This document shows, piece after piece, positions 32,732 to 64,000 of a DNA stretch of 64,000 nucleotides; positions within the stretch are counted from its first letter, which is position 1, and each line of letters starts with the position of its first letter. The stretch comes from Christiangramia lutea. GTDB taxonomy: Bacteria > Bacteroidota > Bacteroidia > Flavobacteriales > Flavobacteriaceae. The position numbers and the translations under genes are program-made. The stretch lies in the NCBI RefSeq assembly GCF_022489035.1, contig NZ_JAKVTV010000001.1, forward strand, positions 868,001-932,000, given 5' to 3'. Below the pieces are notes generated by a model. That model did not search any database, had not been told where the DNA came from, and saw only the letters and a program-made list of their open reading frames with translations.

Positions 32732-33577
32732 TTAGAGACTTAACTCTCCAAGATCGGTTGTCTCGTTAGGTTTTACTTCAACGGTTCCAATAGCGTAGGT
32801 ATCCAGGTTGGCATCTGCCTCAGGAATTACTTCAAGACTATATACTCCGGCAGGAACTCCGTTCAATGAGAAGTTTCCTTCTTCATCGGTATAGGCTGAA
32901 ACCGTAGTAGACTCACCAGTAAGTACAACAAGGCTTTGAACCGACATTTCAAGATCTGCCGGCAACACAATTGCTCCAACCACAACACCGGCATCAGCTT
33001 CTGCTGAAAGTCTTATCACGGGTTTAAGGTTGAAACCACCATTACCAGTAGCAACAATAGATTTGTCTACATCAAAATCAAGAAGAAAAGCATAGTTTTC
33101 ACCTTCTTCAAAATCCTGGTTTAACTGAAGCTTTAATCCAGACTGTTCAGCACTAGGTGTATTTAGTGGTTGTTCAACACCATCTACTATTACAGTGTTC
33201 TCAGACCCTAAAATTAAACGCATCTGGCTCACATATCCTGCAGGCACCTCGGTATCTGCAAGCAATTGAGAAACACCTCCGGTTAATTCCAATAGGTCAT
33301 AAACACCGGTTTGTACGTCTCCAACGCTTACCCATCCGTCACCATCTACATCAGCTTCAGCATCCATTTCATTTTCTGACTGAACCTGAATTTCGATATC
33401 TTCGACATCTACGAACACTGCGTCAAAATCCCCGGGAGCATCAGTCATTCTAACTGTTAGGTTAGCGCTACCTCCGGTAGCAGTTTCACTATCATCATCA
33501 CTACAACTTGTTAATCCTAAAGAAATGAAAGTTGCGATCATTACACTTTTAAAAGTTACATTTTTCAAGTATCTCAT
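32732..33577 (-). CDS. DUF4382 lipoprotein with carboxypeptidase-regulatory-like domain
   Basis: A predicted lipoprotein of 281 residues with lipobox LGLTSCS (Cys about residue 25), an acidic linker, a DUF4382 domain (about 38-190: ANLTVRMTDAPGDFDAVFVDVEDIEIQ) and a C-terminal Ig-like domain (EEGNFSLNGVPAGVYSLEVIPEA). The Asp-rich composition suggests calcium or surface ligand binding, which is inference. Three 10-bp direct repeats lie upstream. It is a single-gene unit with its own terminator. Confidence 0.85.
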   Translation of the reverse strand: MRYLKNVTFKSVMIATFISLGLTSCSDDDSETATGGSANLTVRMTDAPGDFDAVFVDVEDIEIQVQSENEMDAEADVDGDGWVSVGDVQTGVYDLLELTGGVSQLLADTEVPAGYVSQMRLILGSENTVIVDGVEQPLNTPSAEQSGLKLQLNQDFEEGENYAFLLDFDVDKSIVATGNGGFNLKPVIRLSAEADAGVVVGAIVLPADLEMSVQSLVVLTGESTTVSAYTDEEGNFSLNGVPAGVYSLEVIPEADANLDTYAIGTVEVKPNETTDLGELSL

Positions 33578-59651: not shown

Positions 59652-61550
59652 ATGAGTGATGCTTTAAAACACGAATGCGGAATTGCACATATAAGGCTTT
59701 TAAAACCTCTTGATTACTACAAGGAAAAATACGGCACAGCATTTTACGGGGTCAACAAGATGTATCTCTTAATGGAGAAACAGCATAACCGTGGACAGGA
59801 CGGTGCCGGTTTTGCAAGCATTAAACTCAATACCATTCCCGGAGAACGATACATCAGCAGGGTTCGTTCGAACAAAGCTCAGCCTATTCAGGATATTTTT
59901 GAGCAGATCAACCAGAGGATCAACGATGAAATTCAGGCAAACCCGGAATATGCTAACGACACTGAATTGCAAAAAAGATACATCCCTTATCTAGGGGAGG
60001 TCTTCCTTGGACACGTTAGGTATGGAACCTTTGGAAAGAACAGCATAGAAAGCGTTCATCCTTTCCTTAGGCAGAACAACTGGATGCACCGTAACCTTAT
60101 TGTTGCGGGTAACTTCAATATGACCAATGTTAACAGGTTATTCAATAACCTGGTAGAATTAGGTCAGCATCCAAAAGAAAGAGCAGATACGGTTACCGTA
60201 ATGGAAAAGATTGGACATTTCCTGGATTCAGAAGTTCGTAAACTTTATAAAAAATTGAAAAAGGAAGGCTATTCCAAAGTTGAGGCCTCACCTATTATAG
60301 CTGAACAACTGAACGTTGCCAAAATTCTGAAAAAATCTTCCAAGAACTGGGATGGTGGTTATGCTATGGCCGGTTTAATTGGTCACGGTGATTCTTTTGT
60401 ATTAAGGGATCCGGCAGGAATTAGACCAGCATATTACTATAAGGATGATGAAGTTGTTGTGGTCGCTTCAGAAAGACCGGTAATTCAAACCGTATTCAAT
60501 GTAGATTTCAATGAAGTTCATGAGTTACCACCTGGAAATGCCATTATCACCAAAAAGAATGGTAATGTATCTATTAAGAAGATAATTGAACCTCTAGAAA
60601 GAAAGGCCTGTTCTTTTGAACGGATCTATTTCTCCAGAGGTAGTGATGCTGAGATCTACGAAGAGCGAAAAATGCTGGGTAGGCTTTTAATGCCAGATGT
60701 TCTGAAGTCTATTGAGCATGACACTTTAAAAACGGTGTTCTCATTTATTCCCAATACAGCTGAAACTTCTTTTTATGGAATGGTGGAAGCAGCCCAGGAT
60801 GAACTGAACAAACAAAAGAACGAAGCTATCCTGGAGGAAAAAGACACCTTAACCGATGCCAGATTACAGGAAATCCTTTCTCACCGCTTAAGGACAGAGA
60901 AAATCGCCATCAAGGATGTAAAACTTAGGACCTTTATTACAGAAGACAGCAGCCGGGACGACCTGGTAGCCCATGTTTATGATGTGACCTATGGAGTGGT
61001 AAAACCAGAAGACAACCTGGTTATTATAGATGATAGTATCGTTAGGGGAACTACTCTGAAGAAAAGTATTATCAAAATGATGGACAGGCTTAAGCCCAGA
61101 AAGATCATTGTTGTTTCTTCGGCTCCGCAAATAAGATACCCAGATTGCTACGGAATAGACATGGCAAGACTAGAGGACCTAGTCGCCTTTAGAGCTGCCC
61201 TGGAATTATTGAAGGAACAGGGCAAATACGACATCGTTGATGAAGTGTATAATAAATGTAAGGAACAGGTAGACCTTGATGATAACCAAGTACAGAATTT
61301 TGTTAAAGAGATCTATGATCCATTCACCGATGAACAAATTTCTGATAAGATCTCTGAATTGTTATGTGATGAGGATGTAAATGCTGATGTAAAGGTTATC
61401 TACCAATCTGTAAAGAATTTACATAAAGCCTGTCCTAAAAATCTTGGAGATTGGTATTTTACCGGGGATTACCCAACCCCTGGAGGTAATAGGGTAGTAA
61501 ACCGAGCATTTATAAACTTTTTCGAGGGAAATAAGGGACGAGCGTATTAA
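59652..61550 (+). CDS. purF: Amidophosphoribosyltransferase-like enzyme, long form
   Basis: Glutamine PRPP amidotransferase, first step of purine synthesis, 632 residues against about 470-510 for the usual enzyme. The glutaminase nucleophile Cys is residue 9 (ALKHECGIAH), implying removal of an eight-residue propeptide. The glutamine-site RGQDGAG and the PRPP motif NLVIIDDSIVRGTT are intact. The extra length is mostly insertions in the glutaminase half and a C-terminal tail of about 100 residues. Long forms of this type occur in Bacteroidota and may coexist with a standard PurF elsewhere. Confidence 0.9.
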   Translation: MSDALKHECGIAHIRLLKPLDYYKEKYGTAFYGVNKMYLLMEKQHNRGQDGAGFASIKLNTIPGERYISRVRSNKAQPIQDIFEQINQRINDEIQANPEYANDTELQKRYIPYLGEVFLGHVRYGTFGKNSIESVHPFLRQNNWMHRNLIVAGNFNMTNVNRLFNNLVELGQHPKERADTVTVMEKIGHFLDSEVRKLYKKLKKEGYSKVEASPIIAEQLNVAKILKKSSKNWDGGYAMAGLIGHGDSFVLRDPAGIRPAYYYKDDEVVVVASERPVIQTVFNVDFNEVHELPPGNAIITKKNGNVSIKKIIEPLERKACSFERIYFSRGSDAEIYEERKMLGRLLMPDVLKSIEHDTLKTVFSFIPNTAETSFYGMVEAAQDELNKQKNEAILEEKDTLTDARLQEILSHRLRTEKIAIKDVKLRTFITEDSSRDDLVAHVYDVTYGVVKPEDNLVIIDDSIVRGTTLKKSIIKMMDRLKPRKIIVVSSAPQIRYPDCYGIDMARLEDLVAFRAALELLKEQGKYDIVDEVYNKCKEQVDLDDNQVQNFVKEIYDPFTDEQISDKISELLCDEDVNADVKVIYQSVKNLHKACPKNLGDWYFTGDYPTPGGNRVVNRAFINFFEGNKGRAY

Positions 61551-61593
61551 AAAATTCCTTTCAGCCGATAAAAATGCACTTAATCTAATATTC

Positions 61594-61624
61594 TTTGAGG
61601 GGCATACTTTTCTATTTACATTAG
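61594..61624 (+). promoter_or_regulatory. Promoter of array copy 1
   Basis: TTTG (61594-61597), a 19-nt spacer and TACATTAG (61617-61624), one mismatch from TAnnTTTG. The first hairpin of copy 1 begins 3 nt later. Confidence 0.55.
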
Positions 61625-61627
61625 CAT

Positions 61628-61700
61628 TGCCATAACATAAGTAGGTTAAGTTCATGGTAGATTTGGGGCAAAAAAAGGTGGATTCTTTCCGCCTTTTTTT
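61628..61700 (+). ncRNA. Tandem small RNA, copy 1
   Basis: A 73-nt element. Hairpin A: TGCCAT / ATGGTA around a 20-nt loop, using one G-U pair where other copies have A-U. An invariant linker (GATTTGGGGC) follows, then terminator hairpin B, seven A, GGTGGA, loop, TCCGCC and seven T. The loop and stem tip of hairpin B differ from the other copies, and pairing is retained. The promoter lies at a fixed 3-nt distance. Orientation is plus: on the minus strand the terminator would come first. Function unknown. Confidence 0.7.
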
Positions 61701-61815
61701 ATTTTCTGTAAAGGATAAAAAATCACTAAATCAATCCCATTTTTCTCTTTTACAGCACTTTAACTAGTATACAGGCATTTCGTCTAAAAATAAAAATTAT
61801 AAAACATATTCGTTC

Positions 61816-61823
61816 TATATTCA
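61816..61823 (+). promoter_or_regulatory. -7 box of array copy 2
   Basis: TATATTCA, 3 nt before the hairpin of copy 2; the same variant occurs at the moxR promoter. No clear -33 TTG. Confidence 0.4.
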
Positions 61824-61826
61824 CAA

Positions 61827-61901
61827 TACCATAGCATAAGTAGGTTAAGTTCATGGTAGATTTGGGGCAAAAAAAGGTGGAACTTGTTTCCGCCTTTTTT
61901 T
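61827..61901 (+). ncRNA. Tandem small RNA, copy 2
   Basis: A 75-nt copy, identical to copies 3 and 4 across its length. Hairpin A is TACCAT / ATGGTA; hairpin B has a 14-bp stem with one T-G wobble and the loop CTTGT, ending in seven T. It starts 202 nt before copy 3. The spacer following copy 1 and the spacer following this copy differ at only about six positions. Confidence 0.7.
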
Positions 61902-62017
61902 ATTTTCTGTAAAGGATAAAAAAATTACTAAATCAATCCCAATTTTATGTTTTACAGCATTTTAACTAGTATACAGGCATTTCGTCTAAAAATAAAAATT
62001 ATAAAACATATTCGTTC

Positions 62018-62025
62018 TATATTCA
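62018..62025 (+). promoter_or_regulatory. -7 box of array copy 3
   Basis: TATATTCA at the same 3-nt distance from hairpin A as in copy 2. Confidence 0.4.
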
Positions 62026-62028
62026 CAA

Positions 62029-62103
62029 TACCATAGCATAAGTAGGTTAAGTTCATGGTAGATTTGGGGCAAAAAAAGGTGGAACTTGTTTCCGCCTTTT
62101 TTT
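62029..62103 (+). ncRNA. Tandem small RNA, copy 3
   Basis: A 75-nt copy with the same hairpin A, linker and hairpin B as copy 2. The downstream sequence after the terminator is different from that after copies 1 and 2, showing that conservation follows the RNA, not the flanking DNA. Confidence 0.7.
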
Positions 62104-62218
62104 ATGGATTAAAGAAAAAAAGTCAGGATAAAAAACCATACAATTTTCTGTTTTTCAGTGTTTTACCTATTTTTTTTGCCTTTTGTCTAAAAAATTAATT
62201 CATATGAAATTTTCGTGT

Positions 62219-62226
62219 TATATTCA
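62219..62226 (+). promoter_or_regulatory. -7 box of array copy 4
   Basis: TATATTCA again 3 nt before hairpin A, although the rest of the spacer has diverged from the earlier ones. This selective conservation supports promoter function. Confidence 0.45.
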
Positions 62227-62229
62227 CAA

Positions 62230-62304
62230 TACCATAGCATAAGTAGGTTAAGTTCATGGTAGATTTGGGGCAAAAAAAGGTGGAACTTGTTTCCGCCTTT
62301 TTTT
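62230..62304 (+). ncRNA. Tandem small RNA, copy 4
   Basis: A 75-nt copy identical to copies 2 and 3. The upstream spacer is clearly diverged except near the promoter box, suggesting this copy is older than the duplication that made copies 2 and 3. The sod terminator begins about 30 nt downstream. Confidence 0.7.
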
Positions 62305-62335
62305 ATGGAATATCATTAAAATTAGATATAAAAAA

Positions 62336-62357
62336 AAGGCCACCAATTGGTGGCCTT
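62336..62357 (-). terminator. Terminator of the superoxide dismutase gene
   Basis: A perfect palindrome AAGGCCACC-AATT-GGTGGCCTT, followed on the minus strand by seven T residues. Confidence 0.9.
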
Positions 62358-62379
62358 AAAAATTTTATCTGGATCGAGA

Positions 62380-62988
62380 TTATTTTGCTTTTGCATATCT
62401 GCTAGAGACTTCTTTCCAATTAATCACATTAAAGAATGCGTCTATATATTCCGGACGCTTATTTTGGTAGTTCAAATAATATGCATGCTCCCAAACATCC
62501 AGTCCAAGAATAGGAGTACCACCACAACCAACACCAGGCATTATTGGATTATCCTGGTTAGGAGTAGAGCAGATCTCCACTTTTCCACCTTCATGAACAC
62601 ACAACCATGCCCATCCAGATCCAAACTGACCCGCTGCTGCTTTAGAAAATTCTTCCTTAAATGCTTCGAAAGACCCATAGGCGCTATCAATTGCACTGGC
62701 AAGCTCTCCTTCAGGTTTTCCTCCTCCCTCTGGAGACATGATCTCCCAGAACAAACTGTGGTTATAGAAACCACCTCCGTTATTACGAACTGCAGAATTA
62801 GACTTATCAAGATTTTTTAAAATATTCTCAATATTCTTACCCTCAAGTTCAGTACCTTCTATCGCGTTGTTCAATTTACTTGTGTAACCCGCGTGATGTT
62901 TTCCATGGTGAATTTCCATAGTTTTTGCATCTATATGTGGTTCCAATGCATCAAAAGCATATTTTAATTTTGGTAACTCAAAAGCCAT
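62380..62988 (-). CDS. sodA: Superoxide dismutase (Fe/Mn family)
   Basis: It converts superoxide to peroxide, 202 residues, cytosolic. Metal ligands: His in [12 protein letters not shown] (about 27), His in [11 protein letters not shown] (about 75), Asp and His in [22 protein letters not shown] (about 163 and 167). Whether the metal is Fe or Mn (or either) cannot be fixed from the sequence by eye. A single gene with its own promoter box and terminator. Confidence 0.95.
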
Positions 62989-63029
62989 AATTATCTTATT
63001 TTTTTAAGTGATTAGTATTTAAACTCACC

Positions 63030-63037
63030 CAAATTTA
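63030..63037 (-). promoter_or_regulatory. -7 promoter box of sod
   Basis: On the minus strand TAAATTTG matches TAnnTTTG; TTTC about 20 nt upstream is one base from the -33 TTTG. Confidence 0.45.
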
Positions 63038-63165
63038 GCTATTAGCCTATGTAATGGAAATTTTTTAGTGTTATAAAATACTTAAAAGCAATGCCTATTA
63101 AAAATCCATTTTTATTTTACTTTTAATTTTTAATATTTTTTCAAAACCCAATCATAACAAGCTAT

Positions 63166-64000
63166 TTGAAAAATTCCTTTAATATTTACAACGCCTCTGC
63201 TGGTTCGGGGAAGACCTTTACCCTGGTTAAAGAATACCTTTGCCTTCTCTTCAGGTCTAATAGAAAAGACAGGTACAAAAACATCCTGGCAATTACATTT
63301 ACCAATAAGGCCGTAGGGGAAATGAAAAAAAGGATCATTGAAAGCCTGGTAGAGTTTTCGCGAATTGATGAACTTTCGAACAACAGTGCCCTCCTATATG
63401 CAATTTCAGAGGAGACCGGCCTTTCCGCGAAAGAAATAAAAAGCAGGTCTACTGAAATTCTTAAAAGCATCATCCATAATTATGCGGCTTTTGAAATTTC
63501 CACTATAGATGGGTTTACTCATCGTGTGTTGAGGACTTTTGCCCGGGACCTGGGTATTCCCATGAATTTCGAAGTTGAACTCAGCACAGATGATATTCTT
63601 ATGGAAGCTGTGGAGAGTTTAATAAATCGGGCCGGAACCGATAAAAAACTTACCAAGGTTTTGATCGATTATACCTTGTCTAAAACAGATGATGACAAGA
63701 GCTGGGATATTAGCAGGGATCTTTTTAGCATCTCAAAACTTCTCATCAATGAGAATCACCAGAAGGCTATTCAGATTCTAAAGGATAAAACCCTAGAAGA
63801 TTTTGAAAAATTCAGTAAAAAACTAAGATCTGATATCAAGATTGCTGAAGAAACCTTAAAACTTTCAGCAGAATCTTTTTTCGACCTTATACAGTCAAAT
63901 GGAATTCAGGAATCTGATTTCAGCGGAAAATATGTCCCAAAGCATTTCGATAAGTTAAGGTCTGGCGCATCTGTAAATTTCAGTACCAAATGGGCTGAAA
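63166..64000 (+). CDS. UvrD/RecB-like DNA helicase, 3' end missing
   Basis: An open frame from TTG 63166 to the window edge, at least 278 residues. The N-terminus reads YNASAGSGKTFTLVKEYL, the Walker A motif of superfamily 1A helicases, followed by ITFTNKAVGEMKKRI (motif Ia) and ISTIDGFTHRVLRTFARDLG, as in AddA/RecB-type exonuclease subunits of Bacteroidota. The nuclease domain would lie beyond the window. The gene is cut off, so completeness cannot be judged. Confidence 0.85.
   Translation, partial: MKNSFNIYNASAGSGKTFTLVKEYLCLLFRSNRKDRYKNILAITFTNKAVGEMKKRIIESLVEFSRIDELSNNSALLYAISEETGLSAKEIKSRSTEILKSIIHNYAAFEISTIDGFTHRVLRTFARDLGIPMNFEVELSTDDILMEAVESLINRAGTDKKLTKVLIDYTLSKTDDDKSWDISRDLFSISKLLINENHQKAIQILKDKTLEDFEKFSKKLRSDIKIAEETLKLSAESFFDLIQSNGIQESDFSGKYVPKHFDKLRSGASVNFSTKWAE

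Follow-up and report, generated by a model that had tools for sequence, protein, structure and literature searches.

The subject of this report is a tandem array of four small RNA (sRNA) genes in a stretch of 64,000 nucleotides (nt) from Christiangramia lutea (contig NZ_JAKVTV010000001.1, positions 868,001 to 932,000), which we call the window. The array lies between purF and sod and belongs to a family that is found in most of the Flavobacteriaceae genomes searched. In our opinion, the explanation that fits best overall, and one that is probably correct, is that it encodes a multicopy trans-acting antisense sRNA which would be driven by a LytTR-type response regulator and would block translation initiation. 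Its clearest predicted target is found in relatives of the organism, where it is the mRNA of a small protein that we call T1. The genes, their conservation, the covariation of the terminator, the direct repeats, the complementarity to T1 and the co-occurrence with it are observed in the sequence, and it is from these that we infer transcription, the regulator, repression and dosage.

The four units are 74-76 nt long and are all on the plus strand, at 61628..61701, 61827..61902, 62029..62104 and 62230..62305, so that the copy starts are 199, 202 and 201 nt apart. Each of them was delimited by sequence, fold and covariance model, and consists of a core, a linker and an intrinsic terminator; the description of this gap as four promoter-to-terminator units, made in a first-pass annotation of the same DNA, is thus borne out. 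The 22-nt core of copy 1, CATAAGTAGGTTAAGTTCATGG (61636..61657), is the stretch with complementarity to the T1 mRNAs found in other genera, and copy 2 has the same core at 61835-61856. The four copies are identical in core and linker and almost throughout the terminator. Every copy is predicted to fold into a 5' arm, a linker and a terminator at -23.4 to -23.5 kcal/mol, and for none of the four did any of 200 dinucleotide shuffles fold as well. The 5' hairpin with a 20-nt loop that had been proposed earlier is not what the fold gives; instead there is a 5-nt apical loop plus a bulge. The genome of the organism itself holds four strong matches to the sRNA, all within the array.

Homologues outside this locus, which the first-pass annotation suggested should be sought with a covariance model and a genome search, turned out to be numerous. 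A model built from 29 sequences matches 205/249 Flavobacteriaceae genomes with an E cut-off of 0.001, and 200 still match at E<=1e-6 (here and below, counts are taken over related genomes and are not independent). Strong blastn matches are present in all 24 genomes of the genus and in 8/12 genomes of other Flavobacteriaceae genera; in 23 genomes from the order's other families there is none, the best hit (E 2e-4) covering the terminator only. When 198 class-wide genomes were searched, just four matched the model below 1e-10, all of them Flavobacteriaceae. Homology outside the family was considered and rejected, as the six best of the remaining class-wide matches (L112-L117; E>=3.5e-6) proved on inspection to be terminators that lack the core. 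In GTDB genomes a scan gave at least 118 stretches with the sRNA, and the 80 records among the matches listed are Flavobacteriaceae genera (Zobellia, Maribacter, Winogradskyella, Flagellimonas, Aquimarina, Flavobacterium and others) or uncultured Flavobacteriaceae, Flavobacteriia or Bacteroidetes/Bacteroidota. The core was not found in the viral contigs searched.

The location of the family is conserved too. Among 96 loci counted for neighbourhood (several per genome in some cases), each with one to six copies of the sRNA, purF and sod are both near the copies in 80, purF only in 9, sod only in 5 and neither in 2. For the 80 records among the GTDB matches listed the corresponding numbers are 56, 12, 8 and 4, so that 76/80 have copies beside purF and/or sod. 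Many of the loci with only one of the two neighbours end at the limits of a contig or of the fetched stretch. Given this fixed neighbourhood in both sets, the array is ancestral and fixed rather than mobile, and the mobile repeat that would have spoken against an RNA gene did not appear. The exceptions are cases of rare dispersal or rearrangement: genome G028 has two dispersed copies (L068), G029 has one (L070), and in G030 the array is split in two parts about 18 kb apart (L071, L072).

It is not a family described in Rfam as far as our scan goes, since a cmscan of window positions 60000-64000 returned 31 matches up to E 10 of which none identifies the sRNA. The weak matches among them (MicX, sraA, STnc40 and others) were set aside, as they are far under the gathering scores and follow the terminators. 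The earlier suggestion that the element may correspond to the Flavo-1 RNA, which we take to be Rfam accession RF01705, does not hold, Flavo-1 being absent from all 31. Literature searches of limited coverage, not extending to the sRNAs tabulated in supplements on F. columnare and F. psychrophilum, brought up no report of the family.

Where does selection act on this RNA? Of the 9 pairs in the terminator stem, 6 vary on both sides among the 29 sequences while 100% of cells stay paired, and the covariation of the stem is above that of all 500 shuffles. The 5' arm has no such support: 9/11 of its pairs are invariant and the other 2 change on one side. Across 385 distinct copies there is hardly any variation in the 22-nt core, and the earlier view of core and linker as the most conserved part is supported; the first six bases vary, and sometimes the 5' stem is disrupted by it (for example ACCAGA, in 10/385 copies, breaks one pair). 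A nearly invariant core combined with variable first bases that disrupt the stem argues for a stronger constraint on the linear sequence of the core than on the hairpin, and this is what an antisense region would be expected to show.

Each copy has its own promoter-like sequences. A -7-like box precedes every one of them, as previously noted: TACATTAG at 61617..61624 for copy 1, and TATATTCA at 61816..61823, 62018..62025 and 62219..62226 for copies 2, 3 and 4. The -33 TTTG box was also seen correctly, at 61594..61597 and at copy 1 only. Within the genus a TTTG near the -33 position occurs in 22/24 first copies versus 4/50 later copies, and there is no general -33 box. A wider comparison of 164 distinct upstream regions places the start of the -7 box (TAnnTTnG) 13 nt 5' of CCATA in 136. 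In the same set a 14-bp element, YAKTTYRTCTAAWA, occurs twice, the two occurrences being 20 bp apart in 143 regions and 21 bp apart in 7; the distance from the nearer element to the -7 box is 40 bp in 114 and 41 bp in 35. In the window these direct repeats (period 20 bp) are found by exact pattern match at 61759..61787 (copy 2; G000:C1:929759-929787, G000 being the genome of the organism), 61961..61989 (copy 3; G000:C1:929961-929989) and 62162..62190 (copy 4; G000:C1:930162-930190), all on the plus strand. The repeat of copy 1 (61557..61590) was read from the sequence without an exact pattern match, and its distal half is weaker. In 12 genomes 16/18 exact matches of the repeat pair are at sRNA copies, and in 4 order-level genomes there is no exact match.

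The repeats resemble the binding sites of LytTR regulators. The half-site at the sRNA genes agrees with CCGTTCGTC, the 9-mer of AlgR in the accessible part of PMC4064291; the spacing of the repeats fits that of LytTR repeats, given as 11-13 bp in the accessible part of PMC6193735. Tandem direct repeats of a 9-mer like CCGTTCGTC, 11-13 bp apart and 5' of the promoter, are a trait of LytTR regulons in these partial sources, and the array has it. With 7 LytTR proteins encoded in the genome, a response regulator of this type probably binds the upstream repeats. Copy 1, where a -33 box is present, may need this regulator less. The earlier reading as a family of sRNA genes stands, since the family extends far beyond the locus and the anatomy of each unit argues for independent transcription; what it missed are the operator-like repeats and a target.

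The predicted target in relatives is T1, a protein gene of 28-47 amino acids (aa) at the locus of scoB and an oligopeptide ABC transporter, unlinked to the sRNA array. A profile made from ten T1 proteins matches 125/199 family genomes at E<=0.1, 67 of them at E<=1e-6 (which we call strong T1), and 30/30 further T1 loci adjoin scoB (25) or an oligopeptide ABC gene (28). No match was found in Pfam for the four T1 sequences scanned, nor in NCBIfam for the ten scanned. The C-terminus is basic and hydrophobic (LTKKxFML). Pairwise differences at codon positions 1/2/3 are 0.30/0.16/0.46 in 32 sequences, and third-position single changes are synonymous in 2338 cases versus 427 that are not; therefore the C-terminal 24 codons evolve as coding sequence.

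The leaders of T1 carry repeated sites for the sRNA. We examined 64 loci, which gave 38 distinct leaders, counting as a site any complement of the core with up to 2 mismatches. At least one site is present in 37/38 leaders and at least two in 28/38, mostly one to three per leader plus first codons, whereas the reversed motif as a control gives a site in 3/38. Counted from the start codon, the sites typically lie near -60, -26 and +12; they end at this codon or flank it, and the +12 site encodes the conserved NLPEQPT. For the 33 leaders of the main (NLP) type the predicted duplexes reach -32.0 to -50.2 kcal/mol; the second leader type (MEAQ, 5 leaders) has weaker sites, at -20.3 to -28.1 kcal/mol. 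These energies were obtained with the U26 form of the core and with no folding penalty for either RNA, accessibility being ignored. A covariation of core base 26 with the T1 sites is at most suggestive in 14 genomes and was not used. The earlier expectation that the RNA pairs with a target is thereby supported in other genera, and we infer that the sRNA represses T1 translation by multi-site antisense pairing.

The two genes also occur together. Strong T1 is present in 67/166 sRNA-positive versus 0/33 sRNA-negative genomes (Fisher 3.4e-7), in a set of 199 genomes that was inferred from numbering and in which 4 of the 166 positives are weak sRNA matches. Further, the T1 promoter region has a related 20-bp direct repeat, which the matrix of the sRNA half-site scores above the 95th percentile of shuffles in 19/38 cases, while its second half scores low. 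The same regulator at both promoters is possible; because of this repeat, the sRNA and T1 may answer one signal, in a feed-forward loop. Two observations concern T1 loci in particular genomes. At L054 (G028) the T1 frame is shifted compared with relatives and the sRNA sites are retained. A second locus in G028, G029, G031 and G032 was at one time taken for a same-sense sRNA or a protein-binding cluster; we dropped this, as its opposite strand is a coding mRNA with complementary sites.

Put together, these data suggest the following mechanism. Each copy would be transcribed independently into a trans-acting antisense sRNA of about 75 nt, with a LytTR-type response regulator binding the tandem direct repeat 5' of each copy and so driving the array. 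The invariant core (CAUAAGUAGGUUAAGUUYAUGG plus UAGAUUUGGGG) would pair over the start codon of a target and block initiation. In relatives, a T1 mRNA with mostly one to three sites could load several sRNAs per message, and a mechanism of this kind, stoichiometric and chaperone-poor, would get enough RNA from several tandem genes; in its own genus the sRNA would act on other, unproven mRNAs. That a circuit of this kind extends over most Flavobacteriaceae, with an array under a dedicated LytTR-like operator silencing an unlinked T1 by way of repeated antisense sites of almost full length in the T1 leader and coding sequence, with a coding site conserved so strongly that it may fix the residues NLPEQPT near the N-terminus, and possibly with the feed-forward loop, is a proposal on which we find ourselves evenly divided.

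Several observations count against this explanation. One is that T1 was not found in the genome of the organism by profile or pattern, so that it cannot explain the array in the window; within the genus the T1 pattern has one match with 1 mismatch in G001 and none in the other 7 genomes. Moreover, the operator pattern with one mismatch is no commoner than its control, 4/14 genomes checked have only C26 copies although the T1 energies used the U26 core, and the statistic for co-occurrence ignores descent. The search for targets within the genus counts against it as well. Across some 400 kb of G000 together with the window (403 start regions), the core gives more strong duplexes than each of 60 dinucleotide and 100 CAT-preserving shuffles, but an excess over shuffles is also seen at internal ATGs and in upstream regions; a genome-wide signal specific to start codons therefore failed its controls, which included G159, a genome that lacks the sRNA. 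Predicted secreted genes pair better with the core, shuffles matching them in 0/60 cases in G000 and 1/60 in G014, yet the preference is also seen in G159 (1/60) and is hence nonspecific. A pattern for linker sites has 65 matches outside the array in 14 genus genomes versus 46 for the reversed pattern. Two candidates deserve mention, both unproven. One is a gene for a DUF4382 lipoprotein in the window (32732..33577, minus strand), whose start region is predicted to pair with the core at -30.0 kcal/mol, and for 16/23 of the orthologues scored no more than 4 of 100 shuffles did as well. The other is an outer-membrane-protein-like gene with a site in G000 and G012. Four further places in the genome (C23:605217, C27:159674, C12:118348 and C1:862168) were inspected and set aside as chance complementarity.

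Could T1 mRNA chiefly be a sponge that titrates the sRNA by means of its several sites and its own promoter, while the real targets of the sRNA would be other mRNAs such as envelope-protein messages? We regard this as unlikely, although it would account for at least two sites in 28/38 T1 leaders and for retention of the sRNA where T1 is not found. In the genus, 6/20 matches of an ATG-type pattern start open reading frames with a signal peptide or lipoprotein signal, and the DUF4382 lipoprotein with its orthologues points the same way. But selection acts on T1 as a coding sequence, one of the sites lies across its start codon, and the signal for secreted targets also appears in the genome free of sRNA. 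A circuit like an unlinked type I toxin-antitoxin pair, in which T1 would be a membrane-acting peptide silenced by the sRNA and the copies would ensure an excess of antitoxin, seems to us distinctly unlikely. T1 is small and conserved with the C-terminus that such a peptide might have, the antisense sites across its start codon are long, and strong T1 was never seen without the sRNA in the genomes sampled (0/33), which invites comparison with TimP/TimR (in the accessible part of PMC7667032). Nevertheless, by eye T1 has no clear transmembrane stretch, it resides at a fixed single locus across many genera instead of a patchy distribution, the two genes are unlinked, and the genus of the window retains the sRNA without T1.

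That the RNA titrates a protein in the manner of CsrB/RsmY, with an invariant hairpin and linker binding an RNA-binding protein, would agree with about 40 near-invariant nt, paired parts included. However, some copies have a disrupted 5' arm with no compensating change and still keep the linear core, and the repeated motif of the second locus belongs to a protein-coding mRNA and is complementary to the core. An RRM_1 protein was not found in the genome of the organism, in a search that did not extend to other RNA-binding proteins, Hfq included. Overall we consider this very improbable. Even less credence is due to a mobile or recombination repeat in DNA that mimics RNA genes, in spite of tandem units of about 200 bp and the likeness of copies 2 and 3; the conserved locus, the covarying terminator, the promoter and operator kept with every copy, and viral contigs without a match largely refute it.

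We thus keep the antisense explanation, and it can be placed among known systems. Qrr and RsmX are multicopy sRNAs driven by response regulators, and the array is like them in having several near-identical sRNA genes with what seems to be a dedicated response-regulator operator; it differs in its LytTR-like operator, the tandem head-to-tail arrangement and the target. In design, the nearest known kind appears to be FopS of Bacteroides thetaiotaomicron, which according to the accessible part of PMC11697453 has 14 scattered copies, a partner RbpB with an RRM_1 domain, and SusC targets. In that partial account, FopS too consists of near-identical short sRNAs (65-70 nt) of Bacteroidota with their own promoters and a 3' terminator, and its 5' seed covers target start codons as the core would do here; multicopy, near-identical RNAs of 65-75 nt are what the four copies in the window represent. 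The tandem array, the direct-repeat operator, the small-protein target in relatives and the restriction to Flavobacteriaceae among the genomes searched set the present sRNA apart from FopS as described there. An RbpB-like RRM partner was rejected, since the genome of the organism gave no RRM_1 (PF00076) match in a search whose control was positive in Bacteroides ihuae.

In target type, TimP/TimR of Salmonella seems nearest, where TimR adjoins timP on the opposite strand (accessible part of PMC7667032). Like this and other type I pairs, the sRNA is complementary to the leader of a small-protein mRNA, outside its own genus and in 37/38 T1 leaders. Unlike TimP/TimR, so far as that source goes, the sRNA is multicopy and pairs at repeated sites that reach across the start codon; encoding at one locus, the other trait of type I systems, is absent, with the sRNA at purF-sod and T1 at scoB/ABC in 30/30 loci. 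The Rfp sRNAs of Flavobacterium psychrophilum come from the same bacterial family, and conservation in further species is reported for Rfp11, 13, 15 and 18; the main text of PMC9723704 does not mention purF.

These findings matter because Flavobacteriaceae are a major marine and soil group in which post-transcriptional control is almost unmapped. The sRNA family now has named loci, a predicted operator and a specific predicted target in many genera, and T1 is brought to light as a conserved small protein outside Pfam and NCBIfam descriptions. That the sRNA is multicopy although the genome lacks an RRM protein of the RbpB type also bears on why bacteria duplicate sRNA genes. If it is true that the coding site fixes NLPEQPT, an RNA would constrain a protein sequence.

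Some smaller observations remain. An element that starts with CCCCAAATCTACCATAACT, followed by a long inverted repeat (..CTGTTTTTATAG../..ATAAAAACAGCATAGGGCGCA), is found at L056:5811-5925 and at L134 (complement of ~5468), that is in two genera and once beside mobilisation-type genes. It contains one site complementary to the sRNA core, and it had no match among the plasmids or viral contigs searched. The third copy at L083 is degenerate (TCATGACATAAGTAGGTTAAGTTTATGTTTAG) with a different terminator, and is possibly a diverging paralogue. In the window, the upstream neighbour of the array is an amidophosphoribosyltransferase-like gene of 632 aa (59652..61550, plus strand) with glutamine amidotransferase domains by Pfam, for which we keep the name purF from the first-pass annotation; the convergent downstream neighbour (62380..62988, minus strand) is an Fe/Mn superoxide dismutase gene, sod, by Pfam. 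An inverted repeat flanked by runs of A and T lies between copy 4 and sod at 62331..62366 and may be a shared terminator, probably that of sod. Finally, copies 2 and 3 with their spacers (61694-62097) are 92% identical across 202 nt, a likeness that may come from a recent duplication or gene conversion.
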